Of a stretch of 64,000 nucleotides of DNA, positions 12,535-42,795 are shown piece after piece. The position numbers and the translations under genes are program-made. Origin of the DNA: Luteibacter aegosomaticola (lineage in GTDB: Bacteria; Pseudomonadota; Gammaproteobacteria; Xanthomonadales; Rhodanobacteraceae); contig NZ_CP095741.1 in NCBI RefSeq assembly GCF_023078475.1, positions 4,434,501-4,498,500 on the forward strand. Reading direction: 5' to 3'. The first letter of the stretch is position 1. Every line of letters begins with the position of its first letter. The notes below the pieces were generated by a model that was given only the letters and a program-made list of their open reading frames with translations, searched no databases and had not been told where the DNA came from.

Positions 12535-14970
12535 TCACCAGCGGTAGTTCGCGCCCAGGAGCACGCTGCGGCGTGATCCGAAGTTGCACGCACTCTGCGA
12601 GTACAGGCACGAAGCCACGTAGCGACGATCGCTCAGGTTGGACACCGTGAGCGAATAGTCCCAGCCCTGCCGCTCGTAGCGCATGCCTGCATCCAGCACG
12701 GCATAGGACGGGGTGGTGAAGGTATTGGCCGCATCGCCGTAGCTGCCACCCACGTAACGGCCACCGAGGCTCACGCCAAGGCCTTGCAACGCGCCTTCCT
12801 GGAAGTGGTAATCCAGCCACAAGGCGGCGGTGTTGCGCGGAATGCCGATGGACCGCTTGTCCAGCTCGTCCGGCTCACGCGTACGCGTGTTGAGCTGCTG
12901 CAGCCACGTGTAGCTGCCGATGACGGCCAGTGAGTCCGTGATCTGCGCGTGTGCCTCGGCTTCGATGCCACGCGAACGCACTTCGCCCGTCACGTATTGC
13001 AGGAGCGTCAGCGGATCGGTGGTGAGCACGTTCTGCTGCACCAGGTGGTACGCCGCCAGGCTCATGAAGCTCTGCTTGCCCACGGGCTGGTACTTCACGC
13101 CCAGTTCGTACTGCTTGCCCGTCGTGGGTGCGGGGGTACCGCCCCCTTCCAGCGACGCCGTGGCCTGGGGCTGGAACGACGTGGCATAGCTCAGGTACGG
13201 CGCGAGACCGATGTCCGTGACGTAGGTGAGGCCAAGATGGGTGGTGAACTTGTGCTTGGACTGGTCGACCGCGGTGCCGGCGATGCTATCGGTCGTATCG
13301 GCTTTCGCCCAATCCTCGCGCCCGGCCACCAGAGCGCGCCAATGGCCCCAGCGAATCAGATCCTGTGCATAGATGCCGCTCTGCGAAAGGCGCGTGTGCT
13401 GGTCGGCGGTGTTCTCCGGGACATCGATAGCTGCCCCATACGCCGGGGCGAGTACGTCCAGGCCCGGAACGCCAAACCAGTTGTAGCCATAGCCCTGGCG
13501 ATACAGCGTGCGCTGGTAGTCGACGCCGACGAGGACTTCGTGGGTGGCGCTCCCCGTGTCGAAGTGCCCCTGGAGCTGGTTATCCGCCGTGAGCGTGCGC
13601 GTCGCCTCGTGCATCGCAAGCGCGTAGCGGCCGAGCGTGTGGTTATCCAAGCTGCCGTCATTCCACGCCCAGCCGTTGGCAAACACGGATTGCAACGTGT
13701 CGCGGTTATCCATGTAACGCGCGCTCTGGACGAACTTCCAGCTGTCGTTGAACGCATGCTCCAGGCGGTAGCCCAGCCAGTACTGGGTGCGGCGGTGCTC
13801 ATCGAAATCCGGGTCGCCCGGATCCAGATGGCTGGAGATGCGCCCGAAGGGTGCGGGCTTGCCGGTGCCGACATAGGGCAAGGTGTTGTAGTAGCCCGCA
13901 TCCGGATCGTGCTGATAGCCGGCGACCACGGTGAGCACCGTGGCGTCAGTAGCGCGCCAGCGCACGGAGGGGGCGAGCAGGACGCGCTTGTCCTGCACAT
14001 GGTCGACCTGGGTGTTGGAGCTGCGGCCAAGGCCGACGAGCCGGTAATCCACGCTGTCCGACAGGGCGTCGCTCATATCGAATTGCAGCTGCTTGCGTGC
14101 GTAGCTACCCGTCTGGATACCCACCTCATGCAACGGTGTATCCGTGGGCGTCTTGCTGACGAGATTCACCAGGCCACCCGGGCTCGATTGCCCGTACAGA
14201 ACCGAGGCCGGGCCGTGCACCAGTTCCACGCGTTCCAGCGCATAGGGATCGACGGCGGATGCGCCGTACGAAGCGACGGAACGGCTGGGCAGGCGCAGGC
14301 CATCGAGGTATTGATCGACGAGGAAGCCACGCACGTACATCTCTTCCTGGCCACCGCCATCCTGGCTGAAGCCACGCTGGGCGGTGAGGATGCCCGGCGC
14401 GTAACGCAGCGCCTGCGGCACGTTCTGCACGCCCTGGGCATCCATCTGGCTACGCGTGACCACCGAAATGGCCTCGGGTGTTTCGAGCAGGCTGGCGTCG
14501 GTCTTCGTGCCGGCGCGGGACGTGCTGGCCGCGTAGCCCGATTCGTAGCTTCCGTAGACCTGCATGCCCTCGAGCGTGCGCGTCGAGGTGCGCGCCGCGG
14601 GTCCCGGCGCAGGTGCTTTCGGCGGCGCGGCATGACTGGGCACGGCGGCGGCCGGCCCGACCGTCCAGGCCCCATCGGCCGTAGTTTGCAGCGCCAGCCC
14701 GCTCCCAGCGAGCGCGGCTTCGGCGGCCGCTACGCCGGAGTAGTGGCCATGGACGGGCGCCGCCTGACGGTGTTCCAGCACAGCGGGATCGACCGAGAGC
14801 AGATGCCCGCTGGTGCTGGCGATGCGCATCAGGCTCGTGCTGAGCGGTGCGGCCGGCAGGTCAAAGTCATACGCTGGTGCGTCCTGCGCCATCAGGCGGC
14901 AGGAAAGGCACAGGGCAACGCTAAAGGACAGGGCGCGCAGGCGCGCCGGGCGGCGTGGATATCGTGGCAT
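12535..14970 (-). CDS. TonB-dependent siderophore receptor with STN signalling domain
   Basis: 811 residues from the ATG at 14970; an in-frame TTG at 15009 is less likely. Order: signal peptide ending near SCRLMAQ; secretin/TonB N-terminal (STN) domain (YDFDLPAAPLSTSLMRIAST to about residue 92); Pro/Ala linker; plug (LETPEAISVVTRSQMDAQG, VHGPASVLYGQSSPGGLVN); and a 22-strand-type barrel ending in VLLGANYRW with a terminal aromatic. The STN domain marks a transducer receptor of the FecA/FpvA class that signals ligand binding to FecR. FecR and the sigma gene lie directly upstream, giving a complete cell-surface-signalling cassette. The siderophore is unknown. Confidence 0.95.
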   Translation of the reverse strand: MPRYPRRPARLRALSFSVALCLSCRLMAQDAPAYDFDLPAAPLSTSLMRIASTSGHLLSVDPAVLEHRQAAPVHGHYSGVAAAEAALAGSGLALQTTADGAWTVGPAAAVPSHAAPPKAPAPGPAARTSTRTLEGMQVYGSYESGYAASTSRAGTKTDASLLETPEAISVVTRSQMDAQGVQNVPQALRYAPGILTAQRGFSQDGGGQEEMYVRGFLVDQYLDGLRLPSRSVASYGASAVDPYALERVELVHGPASVLYGQSSPGGLVNLVSKTPTDTPLHEVGIQTGSYARKQLQFDMSDALSDSVDYRLVGLGRSSNTQVDHVQDKRVLLAPSVRWRATDATVLTVVAGYQHDPDAGYYNTLPYVGTGKPAPFGRISSHLDPGDPDFDEHRRTQYWLGYRLEHAFNDSWKFVQSARYMDNRDTLQSVFANGWAWNDGSLDNHTLGRYALAMHEATRTLTADNQLQGHFDTGSATHEVLVGVDYQRTLYRQGYGYNWFGVPGLDVLAPAYGAAIDVPENTADQHTRLSQSGIYAQDLIRWGHWRALVAGREDWAKADTTDSIAGTAVDQSKHKFTTHLGLTYVTDIGLAPYLSYATSFQPQATASLEGGGTPAPTTGKQYELGVKYQPVGKQSFMSLAAYHLVQQNVLTTDPLTLLQYVTGEVRSRGIEAEAHAQITDSLAVIGSYTWLQQLNTRTREPDELDKRSIGIPRNTAALWLDYHFQEGALQGLGVSLGGRYVGGSYGDAANTFTTPSYAVLDAGMRYERQGWDYSLTVSNLSDRRYVASCLYSQSACNFGSRRSVLLGANYRW

Positions 14971-36490: not shown

Positions 36491-37087
36491 ATGAGCGACG
36501 ACGCGAAGTCCCGTCCGGTTACCCGCGAGCAGGCCGAAGAGGCCGTTCGTACCCTTCTGCTGTGGTCCGGTGAAGACCCGACCCGCGAGGGCCTGCTCGA
36601 CACGCCCAAGCGCGTGGTCAAGGCCTACTCGGATTGGTTCAAGGGCTATGACGAGGATCCGGCCGAGTACCTGCGCCGCACCTTCAGGGAAGTGGAAGGC
36701 TACGACGAGATGATCGTCCTGCGCGATATCGAGTTCGAGAGCCACTGCGAACACCACATGGCCCCGATCATCGGCCGCGCCCACGTGGGTTACGTGCCCA
36801 CCGACCGCGTCGTCGGCATCAGCAAGCTCGCCCGCGTGGTCGATGGCTTTGCCCGCCGCTTCCAGGTGCAGGAAAAGCTCACCGCGCAGATCGCGCATTG
36901 CATCGAAGACACCTTGCGCCCGCGTGGCGTCGGCGTGGTGATCGATGCCAGCCACGAATGCATGACCACCCGCGGCGTGCACAAGCGCGGCGTGTCGATG
37001 GTCACCAGCCAGATGCTCGGCAGCTTCCGCGAGGATCCGCGCACACGCGGCGAATTCCTCCGCTTCGTTGGCGTCGACCGTCGCTGA
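36491..37087 (+). CDS. folE: GTP cyclohydrolase I FolE
   Basis: 198 residues. Makes 7,8-dihydroneopterin triphosphate from GTP, the first step of folate synthesis. Zinc ligands are in [12 protein letters not shown] (Cys86, His89) and [10 protein letters not shown] (Cys). Other family stretches: [36 protein letters not shown] and ERLT-equivalent QEKLTAQIA. The ATG at 36491 has a TGAGGA site. The stop is two bases before the TTG of the condensin-like operon, so folE may be cotranscribed with it. Confidence 0.97.
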
Positions 37088-37089
37088 CC

Positions 37090-38400
37090 TTGAACGGGCC
37101 AGCTGACACCACCGTCCACGACGAACGCCTGCAGGATCTCTTCCGCGACGGCGTCGTCGCCGAGGACCTTCCCGCTGTTTTCCCGCTGTTGCGCGGGCGC
37201 AGCCTGCTGCGCACGTTCTCCGCGCTGTTCCACGGCAGCGAGGCGCAGGTACTCCTGCGCCTGCTCGTACTGCGCACGCTCGGTGCGCGCACGCACGCCA
37301 CCGAGTGGACCCCGCAGGAAATCCGCGACCATCTCGCATTCGTCGATCCGGTCAAACTCGAGACCGTCGTCCAGCGCCTGAAGGACCACGACCTCCTGGT
37401 CTACGACACGGAAACGCTGCGTTATCGCGTGGGCCCACTGGGCCGCAAGGCGCTCGGCGCGCTGGCCACGATGCTCGAGTTCGAGAACGACGATGACGAT
37501 GGCCTCGGCTATCTCACGGCGCAGCTCGCCGCGGGCCAGGCCGTCGGTCGCGTTTCCGCGGACGAACTGGGCCACCTGCTCTCGCGTTTGACGGAGCTGA
37601 AGGAAGACTTCGATCGCGCCGTGCTCTCGGGTTCGGAACACCGGATCCGCCGTGCCGCGCATCGCCTGGATTCGGTGTGGACCTGGGTCGAGAAGGGCAC
37701 CGAGATCGTCGCCGCGATCACCGAGGCCGAAGAACTCGAACCCGCGGCGCACCGCCTCGCCCAGGCCGTGGGCCGCGCGCAAAGCGGCCTGCTCCGCCAG
37801 GCTGGCGTGTTCCAGCGCGAGCTCAACAAGATCGACCAGCACCGCGTGCACCTGGGCCGTACCGGCCTGTCCTCGTCGGACCTGGTCGGCTGGCTGCGCG
37901 CGCAGGATATCGAGACGCTCGCCGCCTTCGAGGAAGGCCAGCTCACCCTGCCGCTGCCCGCGCCTTTCCTGCACGACCAGATCGCGCTGGACGTCGCGGA
38001 GTACGAGCTGCTCGAACGCGAACGCATGGCCGCGGAAATCACCGCCCTGCCCGGCGCCGAAGAACCACCGGATACCGCCGACCTGCCGATGGGCGACGAA
38101 GACCTGCGCTTCCTCGAGGATTGGCATGCGGAGCTCGCGGCCATCGCCGCGCCGCGCGAACTCGCCGAGACGTTGATCGGGCACGACTACGCGCTATCCG
38201 CCTACCGTCTTTCCCTGCTCGGCCTGCTGGGCGATCCGGAATCCGCGGCGCTGGAGGGCGGCACCGCCGACCTCGCCCGCCTTCCGCTTGCCCTCGAAAT
38301 CGAGCCCGTGTTGATCGACCCCGAACTGCCCCAGATCGCGCTTGTGAGCGCCGGCCGCCTGCGCCCGCGCACCGCCGCGAAGGACACCCCCGATGCATGA
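37090..38400 (+). CDS. condensin-like complex subunit A (MukF/JetA-like, winged-helix kleisin)
   Basis: 436 residues, start inferred as a TTG at 37090, two bases after folE; no ATG fits upstream without overlapping folE heavily. The N-terminus looks like a winged helix (WTPQEIRDHLAFVDPVKLET, VVQRLKDHDLLVYDTET, LRYRVGPLGRKALG). A long helical and coiled-coil middle follows, then an acidic segment and a C-terminal part with a strand-like end. Gene order, size and adjacency to a KITE-like and an SMC-like gene suggest the kleisin of a MukBEF/MksBEF/Wadjet-like complex. I could not match it to DUF3375 (JetA) by eye, so it may be a divergent branch. Confidence 0.68.
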   Translation: MNGPADTTVHDERLQDLFRDGVVAEDLPAVFPLLRGRSLLRTFSALFHGSEAQVLLRLLVLRTLGARTHATEWTPQEIRDHLAFVDPVKLETVVQRLKDHDLLVYDTETLRYRVGPLGRKALGALATMLEFENDDDDGLGYLTAQLAAGQAVGRVSADELGHLLSRLTELKEDFDRAVLSGSEHRIRRAAHRLDSVWTWVEKGTEIVAAITEAEELEPAAHRLAQAVGRAQSGLLRQAGVFQRELNKIDQHRVHLGRTGLSSSDLVGWLRAQDIETLAAFEEGQLTLPLPAPFLHDQIALDVAEYELLERERMAAEITALPGAEEPPDTADLPMGDEDLRFLEDWHAELAAIAAPRELAETLIGHDYALSAYRLSLLGLLGDPESAALEGGTADLARLPLALEIEPVLIDPELPQIALVSAGRLRPRTAAKDTPDA

Positions 38401-39124
38401 CGAAACCGCCAGCCTGGTGACCCGCCTGCTCGCGCAACGCTGGCTGCCGCGCGATGACGCGCAGGCTCGCAAGGCGCTGCTCGACGAGGCCTTCCGCGAA
38501 GACCTGGACCGCCGCCTCGAAGCAGTCGGCCTGGAGCTGCGTGAACACCCGTACGCCGCGTATATCGGCCTGGCCGTGGCCCGCAAGAGCGAGCGCGCGG
38601 TGTTCGGTGGCAGCGATAGCTGGATCAGCAACACCATGCAGATCGACCGCGACGGCGTCGCACTGCTCGTGGTGATCTGGGCGCTTATCGTGCTGCCGAA
38701 GCGCCAGCGCCAGATCGAACGGCAGGACGTGGACGCCGCCGCCTCGCAGGCGCAGATGTTCGCCGAAGAAAAGCCCATCCCGCGCGACCCGACGGTATCG
38801 CCGGTGATCGCCGAACGCACCCTGCTGGCGGACTTCGCCGACAAGCTCGGCGGCAAGACGCGCGTGAACTTCAACCTGGGCACGCTCAACCGCCTCGGCT
38901 TCATCATCCGCCGCAAGGGTGAAGTGGCCGAAGGGCCGCTGCTCGATCTCGCGTTCGACTACGAGCGCACCGCACGGCGCATCCTCGATGGCGCGCTGGG
39001 CGATCTGCTCGCCGATGCCTCGTCGCGCGCCACGCGCGCTGCAGCGGACGCGAGCGACGACGAGCCGCTCGACGATACCGACACCGATACCGAGAACGAA
39101 GCCGGGGCCACCGACGATGTTTGA
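38393..39124 (+). CDS. condensin-like complex subunit B (MukE/MksE/JetB-like)
   Basis: 243 residues. It starts with an ATG overlapping subunit A by eight bases (ATGCATGA). The body has two helix-turn-helix-like parts, LALLVVI-like core (GVALLVVIWALIVLPKRQRQ) and FADKLGGKTRVNFNLGTLNR with LGFIIRRKGEV, as in KITE/MukE-type tandem winged helices. The C-terminus is a very acidic tail (SDDEPLDDTDTDTENEAGAT). It probably bridges the kleisin and the SMC. The family assignment is from context plus pattern. Confidence 0.68.
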   Translation: MHDETASLVTRLLAQRWLPRDDAQARKALLDEAFREDLDRRLEAVGLELREHPYAAYIGLAVARKSERAVFGGSDSWISNTMQIDRDGVALLVVIWALIVLPKRQRQIERQDVDAAASQAQMFAEEKPIPRDPTVSPVIAERTLLADFADKLGGKTRVNFNLGTLNRLGFIIRRKGEVAEGPLLDLAFDYERTARRILDGALGDLLADASSRATRAAADASDDEPLDDTDTDTENEAGATDDV

Positions 39125-41909
39125 TTTCCGTAGCCTCGAAGTCGTCCACTGGGATTACTGGCAGCGTTTCAGCCTGCCGCTCGATACCAACATCGTCACG
39201 GTGGTGGGCCCGAACGGCTCGGGCAAGACCACGCTGCTCGACGCCTTGCGCACCCTGCTCACGATCGATTGCGCGGGCAACCGCGATTACAAGAGCTACC
39301 TGCGCCACAACGGCAAGCCGTTCGCGTGGCTGCGCGCTCGCGTGGGCAACATCCCGGGGCCGAACGGCGAGCGTCCGTTCTTTCCGCTGATGGACCGCGA
39401 AGTCACGCTCGCCTGCCGTATCCAGAAGAAGGGCGGCGAGTGGACGCGCCAGTACGCTGTCGTCGGCGGCGATGTGAGCATCGAAGACATCGAAGCGCGC
39501 AATGATTTCCTTGGCCTGCGCGAGTATCGCGTGCGCCTGGAAGGCGCCGGCCTCTCGCAGGCCATCCGCCGCGTGCTCACGCTCGAACAGGGCGCCACGG
39601 ACAAGCTCTGCCAGCTGCCGCCGAAGGCACTGCTCGATCTCGTCTTCGACGTATTCGGCGACAAGGCCGTGCTCGACGATTACCAGCGTGCCCGCAATGA
39701 ACAAGCCGAGGCCGATCGCGAACAGCACGGCCTGGAACACCAGCTCTCGCTCATCGGCGTGAGCCTGCAGGAAGCCGAAGCGCGTGCCCGCTCCTACCAG
39801 GAGTGGAATGCGCTGAAGGACGAACGCGTGTCGCTCGTGGCGGAAGTGCTGCCGCGCACCGAATACGCCGATCTCGCCGCCAGCGTGCGTGGTGCGCGCC
39901 CCGCCTTGAACGGTGTGAAGCGCAAGGTGAGCGAACTCGAACAGCGTGATGCCGAGCTCACCCGCCAGCTCGCCGAACTGGACGCCAACGGCGAACAGCT
40001 ACGCGGCGAGCAGAACGAAGCCGACATCGTCCGCCAGTCGACGCAGAAGAGCCTCGACGCCGCCCGCGCGGCCCTTGCACAGAACGACCTCGTCATCCGC
40101 CAGGAAAACCGCCTGCGCGAGATGGTGGCCGCACAGAGCGGCGCGGATCACGAGCGCCTTGCGGATATCGCCCGCGATGCACGCGCCCGCCTGCATGCAC
40201 TGCAGAACGAAGAGGCCGGCCTGCGTCAGGAACTGTCGACACTGACCACCAAGCTCACCGCCTGGCGCAGCGGCCGCCGTTATACGCCGGAATTCGAAGC
40301 CGGCTTCCGCCGTGCGCTTGACGAAGCCGGCATCCGCCACAGCATGCTGAGCGAGATCGTCGAGATCACCCAGCCGCGCTGGCAGCCAGCTGTCGAAGCC
40401 GTCCTGGCCGGTTACCGCCACGTGGTGCTGCTCGATGATCCGCGCGATCGCGAGAAGGCGTGGAAGCTCGGCGAATCGATGCGCTACAAGCACTTCGTGG
40501 TCGCCGACCGCGCGCCGGCCGAGAAGCCCGTCGCCGGCTCGCTGCACGAAGTCGTCGAGTTCTCCGCCGCCGCGCCGGACTGGCTGCTGCGCAACCTCGA
40601 CCGCATCCAGCGCGTGGAAGACGTGCCGGAAGGCTCGAAGCTCGGCCGCGACCAGGACTGGATCACGCCGCAGGGTTACTTCCGCGAACGCCGCGGCGGC
40701 CGCCATCTGGGCGTGGACGATATGTACTTCGGCGCCTCCGCCCGCGAGCGCCAGCTGCGCGATGGTGAGGCGAAGCTGCGCGAGGTCGAAGGCCGCCTGC
40801 GTGCGATCGCCGATGAGCGCAAGACCGCTTCGGCCCAGGCCGGCGACGCCGAAAGCATCCTCCGCGGTGCGAATGCCAGCAGCCAGCTCGCCGATCGTGC
40901 GGAAGAATTCAACGAGGCGCGCGAACAGCAGCCGCGCTTGCAGGAAGATGTGCAGCGCACCGCCGACAGCCACGCCGCAGCCGAGCAGTATTACGAGAGT
41001 GTGCGCGAGAAGCGCCTGAAGACCTCGAACGGCCGCGACAACGGCGCGCGCGAACAGCGCAGCGTGCAGAACCAGCTGGCCGACACCGTGCGCCAGTACC
41101 ACCAGTCGCGCGGTGAACAGGTGGATCGCCTCAAGGCATTCCGCGCCAAGCGCAAGCATGTCTCCCTGGCCCATCGCACGCGTGCCGCCATTGCGGCGCT
41201 ACGCGAGCGCTTTGAATCACCGGCCGCCGTGCGTCGTGAGATGGACCGTGTGGAACGGCGCCTCGAGGAAGGCCACTGGGAACAGGACGCCACCGTGCTC
41301 GCCCTGCGCGAGAAGCTGGGCGCCGACCATGATGGCCTGAAGCAGGATCTGGAGAAGCGCCGGCTGCATCTGGAACGTGCGGGCCGGATTACCCACGAAG
41401 CGCGTGGCGCGTATATCCATGTGTTGCGCAATACGGTGCGCCGCTACGCCAGGAACCTGAAGATGCTGGCCGAACTGGCCGGCATCGGCGTGGACGTCGA
41501 CCTCCCCGAGCTCGCCAACGACGATCTTTCCCTCGCCTCGGCCGCACTCCAGGTGCGCTTCGAGTTCGACAAAAAGGGCTGGATCGGCATGGACGACGGC
41601 GAAGCCTCCGGCGGCCAGCAGGTGATGAAGTCGCTGCTGCTCCTGGTCGCCCTGATGCGCGACGAAGACCGCCCCGGCGGCTTCGTGTTCATCGACGAGC
41701 CGTTCGCCCACCTCGATATCTTCAACATCGACAAGGTCGGCGCGTTCCTCAAGAGCACCCGCGCGCAGTACATCCTGACCACGCCGGCCACGCACAACGT
41801 CAACGTGTTCCAGCCATCCGAGCTCACGCTGGTGACGAGCAAGCGCCGGCCGGGCGCGGTGTGGGCACAGCCGCTGGCGGTACTACGCCGCCGAGCCGAA
41901 GTCGCCTAG
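39117..41909 (+). CDS. SMC-like ATPase of a MukBEF/Wadjet-type complex
   Basis: 930 residues. Walker A GPNGSGKTT is at 31-39, ABC signature ASGGQQ at about 830-835, and Walker B FVFIDEPFAHLD at about 856. Two coiled-coil arms (about 220-400 and 560-790) flank a hinge-like domain (ITQPRWQPAVEAVLAGYRHV at about 425). The length is well under MukB (about 1480) and suits MksB/JetC. The start overlaps subunit B by eight bases (ATGTTTGA); the stop TAG is followed at once by another TAG in the REPIN. Predicted role: ATP-driven loop extrusion or DNA compaction with A and B. No JetD/MksG-type nuclease follows. Confidence 0.86.
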   Translation: MFDFRSLEVVHWDYWQRFSLPLDTNIVTVVGPNGSGKTTLLDALRTLLTIDCAGNRDYKSYLRHNGKPFAWLRARVGNIPGPNGERPFFPLMDREVTLACRIQKKGGEWTRQYAVVGGDVSIEDIEARNDFLGLREYRVRLEGAGLSQAIRRVLTLEQGATDKLCQLPPKALLDLVFDVFGDKAVLDDYQRARNEQAEADREQHGLEHQLSLIGVSLQEAEARARSYQEWNALKDERVSLVAEVLPRTEYADLAASVRGARPALNGVKRKVSELEQRDAELTRQLAELDANGEQLRGEQNEADIVRQSTQKSLDAARAALAQNDLVIRQENRLREMVAAQSGADHERLADIARDARARLHALQNEEAGLRQELSTLTTKLTAWRSGRRYTPEFEAGFRRALDEAGIRHSMLSEIVEITQPRWQPAVEAVLAGYRHVVLLDDPRDREKAWKLGESMRYKHFVVADRAPAEKPVAGSLHEVVEFSAAAPDWLLRNLDRIQRVEDVPEGSKLGRDQDWITPQGYFRERRGGRHLGVDDMYFGASARERQLRDGEAKLREVEGRLRAIADERKTASAQAGDAESILRGANASSQLADRAEEFNEAREQQPRLQEDVQRTADSHAAAEQYYESVREKRLKTSNGRDNGAREQRSVQNQLADTVRQYHQSRGEQVDRLKAFRAKRKHVSLAHRTRAAIAALRERFESPAAVRREMDRVERRLEEGHWEQDATVLALREKLGADHDGLKQDLEKRRLHLERAGRITHEARGAYIHVLRNTVRRYARNLKMLAELAGIGVDVDLPELANDDLSLASAALQVRFEFDKKGWIGMDDGEASGGQQVMKSLLLLVALMRDEDRPGGFVFIDEPFAHLDIFNIDKVGAFLKSTRAQYILTTPATHNVNVFQPSELTLVTSKRRPGAVWAQPLAVLRRRAEVA

Positions 41910-42003
41910 TAGGAGCCCACCCTGTGGGCGACGCCTTTCGTACCACCGCCACAGGGCCTGTGGCGTTTTCGCGAAAGATGTCGCCCACAGGGTGGGCTCC
42001 TAC
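41909..42003. repeat. REPIN, family A
   Basis: 95-base copy that begins at the last base of the SMC gene and fills most of the gap to the convergent hendecad-repeat gene. Core subtype with TGTGGCGTTTTCGCG, as at 26689. Confidence 0.95.
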
Positions 42004-42012
42004 AATCGTGCG

Positions 42013-42687
42013 TCAGTAGAAACGGCTTTCGCCCGGCACCGGGTTGTCCTCGCCCGAACCATCCAGCGCGTCACCGGCATCGTTGCTAGCGCGGTAGCGC
42101 GTCGGGTCGTGTTCGTCGTGGGCTAGCTGCGCCTGCTGCTTCTGCTTGCTGCGGCGGAGCAGCCACGCGGCGGCGAGGGCGGCGACACCGATGCCCGCGC
42201 CTACGGCTAGCGAGGTACGCGGATGGCTCTTCACCTGCTTGCTGGCGCGCGATGCGGCTTTACTGGCCTTGCGCGCCGCGCTCGCGGCGGCCTTTGAAAC
42301 GCGCTGACCCGCATCCGAGGCAACGTCGCTGCCCTGATGCCCGACGCGCGCGGCAACGGCGCTGGCGTGATGCCCGATGTGCGCGGCAAGATCGCTGGCC
42401 TGATGTCCCGTCAGCGCGGCGAGCTTGCTGGCGCGTTTTTCGGTCCGGGACGCGAGCTTGCTGGCTCGCTTGCCGGTGGCCGCTGCCAGTTCCGCCGCCC
42501 GCTTTTCCGCCCGGGCCACGAGTTCGCGCACGTCATCCCCGAGGTCCACCACCGCCAGCCCGGCATGGCCCACGTACTGGCGGGCGGCGCCCTTCAGCTC
42601 GAGGGCACGGTCGTGTGTGATCGTGCCGGCGAGACGCTGGGCGCGACCGCCGAGTTCAGCGGTGAGGCTCTTGCGGAACAGGGACAT
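42013..42687 (-). CDS. membrane-anchored protein with eight 11-residue repeats
   Basis: 224 residues. After about 60 residues the chain holds eight consecutive 11-residue repeats (residues 61-148): EKRAAELAAAT, GKRASKLASRT, EKRASKLAALT, GHQASDLAAHI, GHHASAVAARV, GHQGSDVASDA, GQRVSKAAASA, ARKASKAASRA. Next come a basic stretch, one membrane helix (TSLAVGAGIGVAALAAAWLL, about 157-176) followed by RRS, and an acidic tail. The C-terminal half resembles ElaB/YqjD/DUF883 tail-anchored proteins. The repeats should form an amphipathic helix like LEA or synuclein hendecads. A strong AGGAG site precedes the ATG. Function unknown. Confidence 0.85.
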   Translation of the reverse strand: MSLFRKSLTAELGGRAQRLAGTITHDRALELKGAARQYVGHAGLAVVDLGDDVRELVARAEKRAAELAAATGKRASKLASRTEKRASKLAALTGHQASDLAAHIGHHASAVAARVGHQGSDVASDAGQRVSKAAASAARKASKAASRASKQVKSHPRTSLAVGAGIGVAALAAAWLLRRSKQKQQAQLAHDEHDPTRYRASNDAGDALDGSGEDNPVPGESRFY

Positions 42688-42795
42688 GGGAGGGCTCCTT
42701 GGGCGTTCTGAGGCTCCCAAGGTGCCGCCGCGGGTGTGATGATCGTGCGTTGATGATGTTCGCTTCGCGTCACCGGTTCAGGATTTCCGGGCCCT

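Follow-up and report, generated by a model that had tools for sequence, protein, structure and literature searches.

A previously unclassified Wadjet relative in Luteibacter aegosomaticola, probably of a lineage with a dispensable nuclease

What does a motor of the structural maintenance of chromosomes (SMC) type do when the nuclease gene found beside its relatives is missing? The question is raised by three plus-strand genes, here called A, B and C, in Luteibacter aegosomaticola (NZ_CP095741.1), whose genome is a single 5.09-Mb contig; 'the window' means the whole 64-kb stretch of it that was analysed. A is kleisin-like (37090..38400; TTG start, 436 amino acids (aa), with an N-terminal winged helix, a helical middle and a C-terminal part with strands), B is KITE-like (38393..39124; 243 aa) and C encodes an SMC-type ATPase (39117..41909; 930 aa). 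The two 8-base overlaps by which a preliminary description, made from the letters alone, had joined them are real: ATGCATGA at 38393..38400 and ATGTTTGA at 39117..39124. The A-B-C family is a previously unclassified relative of Wadjet, a system that destroys plasmids. It probably forms a divergent Wadjet/MksBEF-like lineage whose nuclease is dispensable and which, here, most likely helps to organise DNA beside Smc-ScpAB.

C matches SMC_N (E 5.5e-15), with the Pfam SMC_hinge model alone under its cut-off (E 0.069). Comparison with a JetC profile by hhalign gave 95.8% probability and E 7.7e-9 over columns 2-588, so the similarity covers the N-terminal head and extends into the middle of C; the PADLOC model JetC1 scores 79.9 bits across the coiled coil. 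Walker A (GPNGSGKTT, 39207..39233, residues 31-39), the signature SGGQQ (41607..41621, residues 831-835) and Walker B (FVFIDEP, 41682..41702, residues 856-862) are invariant in a close alignment of 42 rows and, F856 apart, also in a wider one of 29 rows, where F856 is almost constant. By these sequence features C is an SMC ATPase related to JetC.

The other two subunits were placed by predicted fold, one prediction being of moderate and one of low confidence, and the subunit identity of the Foldseek matches was taken from chain lengths. The eight best matches of A all come from MukF or MukBEF/MukEF entries; the kleisin call therefore rests on a moderate-confidence predicted fold and on the place of A beside KITE and SMC genes. 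The three best matches of B come from JetABC entries (best E 1.2e-5), and in VIA such chains are tied with winged-helix proteins. DUF4194 was detected in 16 of 39 members of the B alignment (E values up to 10, best 8.3e-5) and gave no match in the B of the window. Neither A nor B of the window matches any model of Pfam, NCBIfam or PADLOC, and no PADLOC model matches A or B of two loci that carry the nuclease gene (L204 and L192). DUF3375, the Pfam family of JetA and of the MksF kleisin, is absent from the window's genome, and the KicB/MukF family PF03882 was found in 0 of 114 genomes, the window's included, with a positive E. coli control. The kleisin, KITE and SMC reading of the preliminary description is thus upheld, for A and B by predicted fold and not by sequence.

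A putative nuclease gene is present in some relatives. A fourth gene, D, of about 400 aa, lies there directly behind C and scores with JetD models. It was first met behind a C relative cut by IS1071 on two Variovorax plasmids, where the better annotated copy (393 aa) matches PADLOC JetD1 at 3.4e-15 and has a 4-bp overlap with the C stop. The plasmid loci with the cut C are L149:5940-11561, L152:8001-12516 and L150:6940-12561; in WDL1 the halves of C stand about 28 kb apart, with genes between them, some catabolic, and D behind the C-terminal half. Ten Burkholderiales loci also have D behind C, a D profile from the Burkholderiales/Variovorax set found nine more, including Luteibacter jiangsuensis (L051), and later scans added L002, L031, L041 and L210, the last copy cut by a contig end. 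D overlaps or closely follows C everywhere except at L116, where the gap is about 520 bp. For each of the six D proteins put to PADLOC the best match was JetD1 (best E-values 2.3e-22, 3.4e-15, 7e-12, 1.2e-11, 1.3e-11 and 2.4e-11). Across 16 D proteins E271 and D320 never vary and D322 hardly does, acidic positions that we take to fit a TOPRIM site as metal ligands. We infer that D encodes a JetD-like TOPRIM nuclease.

Of the 142 distinct C rows, 137 could be scored for D: 21 have it and 116 lack it; the other 5 are undecidable. D also occurs in two of nine genomes of the window's genus. Rows with D are scattered on the C tree and require at least 13 changes, a count that cannot separate gain from loss. 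'Without nuclease', as the preliminary description put it, accordingly describes the window locus and, by homology, its genome, and fails as a trait of the family.

The closest relatives indicate what became of D in the window's lineage. The 103-bp interval at 41910..42012 is where D lies in D-bearing relatives (blastn); as had been described, only a REP doublet forming a hairpin (REPIN), with perfect inverted arms at 41909 and 41980, and an unrelated, convergent gene that bounds the site (42013..42720, minus strand; blastn) follow the C stop. REPIN-like elements with 24-nt arms, mostly 71 nt apart, are spread over 25143-50539, and the arm occurs in 16 exact copies in the window, one pair exactly at the empty D site.

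At L051 the C stop and the D start share ATGA, and directly after the two genes, at 13004-13110, blastn places the match to window 42013-42119. At L031/L241, C and D are followed by a cassette and then by the common neighbour, the match to window position 42012 lying at 6694 of L241 (blastn). At L036/L242, C is followed by a relic, about 16 codons resembling a D start, and then by a cassette; the relic scores 21 locally against the D start of L051, compared with at most 19 across 500 random windows, and 14 against that of L031, a score that 6 of 500 also reached. L044 has no D, its C being followed by a DUF433/PIN-like pair. The cassettes are related (L242-L044, 71% over 1404 bp; L241-L044, 70% over 620 bp), and a toxin-antitoxin-like pair, DUF433/MerR-like plus PIN-like, stands in or behind the D site at L044:11807-12909, after C in L242 and after D in L241.

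A quick tree groups the window with L031 and L036 (starred, 96), and a FastTree analysis unites these three with L044 (97); among the D proteins, those of L031 and L051 pair as sisters (100/99). Because these sister D genes occupy the same site and L036 holds a relic, the loss in the window's lineage appears recent: an ancestor not far back very likely still had D. The preliminary description had held that its reading would be refuted if close relatives kept an adjacent nuclease gene merely lost here, and such a gene does stand at L051 and L031/L241, in the same genus.

For the deeper history, trees of D and C over 18 rows with D agree in 7 of their 15 branches, where 1000 permutations of the labels gave no more than 3. 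A Mantel test of D and C gave r 0.476 (0 of 999 permutations). By the approximately unbiased test a Xanthomonadales clade is not rejected on the D data (p-AU 0.188), and trees of the fast-evolving D are weak at depth. Profile searches for D covered two chosen sets of 57 and 60 genomes, 117 in all. Strong matches were found in 14, all beside C (in genome G854 over two contigs). Among genomes without C there were none in 20 of the second set and, in nine of the first, one weak partial match (G444, 7.6e-14). JetD genes of PF09983 occur in 8 of 42 genomes, the window's not among them. Neither the D profile nor PF09983 finds a D homologue in the window's genome; the suggested nuclease encoded elsewhere was thus looked for by homology and not found, and a non-homologous one is possible.

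What remains when D is gone is still selected. Ratios of non-synonymous to synonymous substitution (dN/dS; NG86 method, hand-picked pairs in which both members lack D) are 0.013-0.085 for C (13 pairs), 0.011-0.133 for A (12 pairs) and 0-0.198 for B (13 pairs). A-B-C is thus under purifying selection where D is absent, and it must therefore do something without the nuclease. No common replacement for D was seen in clustered downstream genes or in 10 scanned proteins from nine loci lacking D, which include RlmL-like, YjbR, EF-hand, M48 peptidase, kinase-PUA and DUF1456 proteins, fructosamine kinase twice and a DUF433/PIN-like pair.

The three genes also occur together beyond chance. A pattern scan of genome contigs for relatives gave 173, of which the best 80 were kept. 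Among 154 loci scored for A and B, all chosen for holding C, B was found in 153 and A in 149; in all five without A, one of which also lacks B, C lies near a contig end. The order A-B-C is kept down to about 43% identity of C. Some Rhodocyclales have other genes within the operon (L107:7120-8293, L108:7901-9001 and L106:2231-3378; HigB-like in L108, trmA in L106), and the tight coupling has therefore been lost in them. By profile search C occurs in 15 of 200 genomes of the window's order, 63 of 399 of the order of a Thauera genome (presumably Burkholderiales in GTDB) and, across the phylum, in 6 of 398, every one of them from the window's class. It was found on 2 of 72,556 plasmid records, compared with 15 for a type I JetC control, and on none of the phage records. 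Each of the 42 genomes checked, of which 33 have A-B-C (the window's among them) and 9 lack it, also holds Smc and ScpA; coexistence with Smc-ScpAB is judged by these two, ScpB not having been searched. A-B-C is therefore an additional complex.

We hypothesize that a C dimer would form an ATP-driven ring, closed by A as kleisin with B as its KITE partner. The family would have carried D directly behind C and lost it several times, recently also in the window's lineage; at deep nodes, loss rather than repeated gain is likely though not proven. The remaining A-B-C would most likely extrude DNA loops and organise the chromosome as a second condensin beside Smc-ScpAB, much like MksBEF of Pseudomonas aeruginosa. 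A bolder version, to which we give about an even chance, is that this is a fourth Wadjet lineage with the nuclease as an optional add-on, its motor alternating between plasmid-cutting defence with D and nuclease-free chromosome organisation without it, the switch being caught within one genus.

Several observations weigh against this account. PADLOC scores C equally for mad3 (3.9e-23) and JetC1 (3.4e-23); A and B have no sequence or profile match to JetA, JetB, MukF or MukE; the Foldseek matches of A all fall short of E 0.001, with TM-scores of about 0.16 over the full length, and generic winged-helix proteins score close in VIA; and comparing D by hhalign with a JetD profile of five sequences gave no match. 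A-B-C is patchy, at 15 of 200 genomes of the order, unlike an indispensable condensin. Eight of the 15 D and C branches differ, mostly deep ones weakly supported in D, so exchange or gain of D may have occurred at some nodes. A 234-aa D fragment, the TOPRIM half, lies on a mobilizable Diaphorobacter plasmid (NZ_CP049912.1; L243:1030-1734) with no A, B or C on that record, which alone was covered, the host chromosome not having been examined.

These last points feed the view that A-B-C is an ancestral condensin which captured D repeatedly, loci with D being defence systems newly assembled around a housekeeping motor. That D is the minority state and scattered, that its deep branches mismatch the C tree and that the plasmid fragment lacks a C would all fit, but D keeps one position behind C and tracks it within clades, strong matches in the genomes searched occur only beside C, and a relic survives in the window's own clade; we regard repeated capture as unlikely. 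Marginally less probable still is that A-B-C continues to limit plasmids or phages without D, through compaction or a non-homologous nuclease. A passage of a review describes JetABC as the sensor part of Wadjet (PMC10586767), and D itself scores with JetD defence models; against this stand the want of a JetD homologue in the window's genome and of any common replacement gene behind C in the proteins scanned. The relic, the empty D sites of relatives and the absence of A-B-C from many genomes of the order could instead mark a decaying defence remnant, functionless once D had gone, as could a Luteibacter metagenome-assembled genome in which C is interrupted by a stop (L045:8887-11793, with two open reading frames, 650 and 302 aa long; either decay or a sequencing error). 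Purifying selection in pairs lacking D, the conserved ATPase motifs and the prevalence of the D-less state (116 of the 137 rows that could be scored; in a Dyella clade of 13 rows, 12 lack D and 1 is undecidable) make such decay quite improbable. A dispensable nuclease on a motor still in use thus stays our preferred explanation.

Upstream, A starts 2 nt past the stop of a plus-strand gene (36491..37087) that we take to be GTP cyclohydrolase I-like FolE and that has homologues at 22 loci, the window's and 21 that carry the names Luteibacter or Dyella; given the short gap, A may be co-transcribed with it.

Close relatives thus offer a natural series at one chromosomal site, from intact D through a relic to clean absence, with the motor still selected, and A-B-C could show how a defence system becomes a chromosome organiser. 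If the nuclease is indeed optional, that route from defence to condensin is testable on sister species. The PADLOC models of 2023 also miss the tested A and B subunits of an SMC family that occurs in Xanthomonadales and in 63 of 399 genomes from the Thauera order. A review passage proposes that MukBEF and MksBEF may descend from Wadjet, MksBEF through nuclease loss, and calls the evolutionary relationships unresolved (PMC10586767).

Among known systems, A-B-C departs from a defining trait of each, its kleisin lying outside the modelled JetA, MksF and MukF families. With type I Wadjet (JetABCD, or MksBEFG) it shares the gene order kleisin-KITE-SMC(-TOPRIM nuclease), a C profile similar to JetC, D proteins that score best with JetD1 and a predicted B fold whose nearest matches are JetABC-entry chains with the length of JetB, but PADLOC recognises neither A nor B, C has 930 aa compared with 1123-1148 aa for the fetched JetC open reading frames, DUF3375 is missing from the window's genome, and D is facultative, being absent from the window locus and genome. 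Like MksBEF of P. aeruginosa, whose MksB is noted in a passage of one paper for its short coiled coil (PMC4255302), it is an SMC complex alongside Smc, but A has no detectable similarity to DUF3375 (MksF), and intact, relic and absent D occur within one genus. Its order kleisin-KITE-SMC is that of MukBEF, and MukF or MukBEF entries give the best fold matches of A, whereas the window's genome has no KicB/MukF family, MukB is far longer (1486 aa) and A-B-C occurs beside Smc and ScpA. With Smc-ScpAB it shares the SMC ATPase superfamily of C, but separate Smc and ScpA genes stand elsewhere in the same genome.

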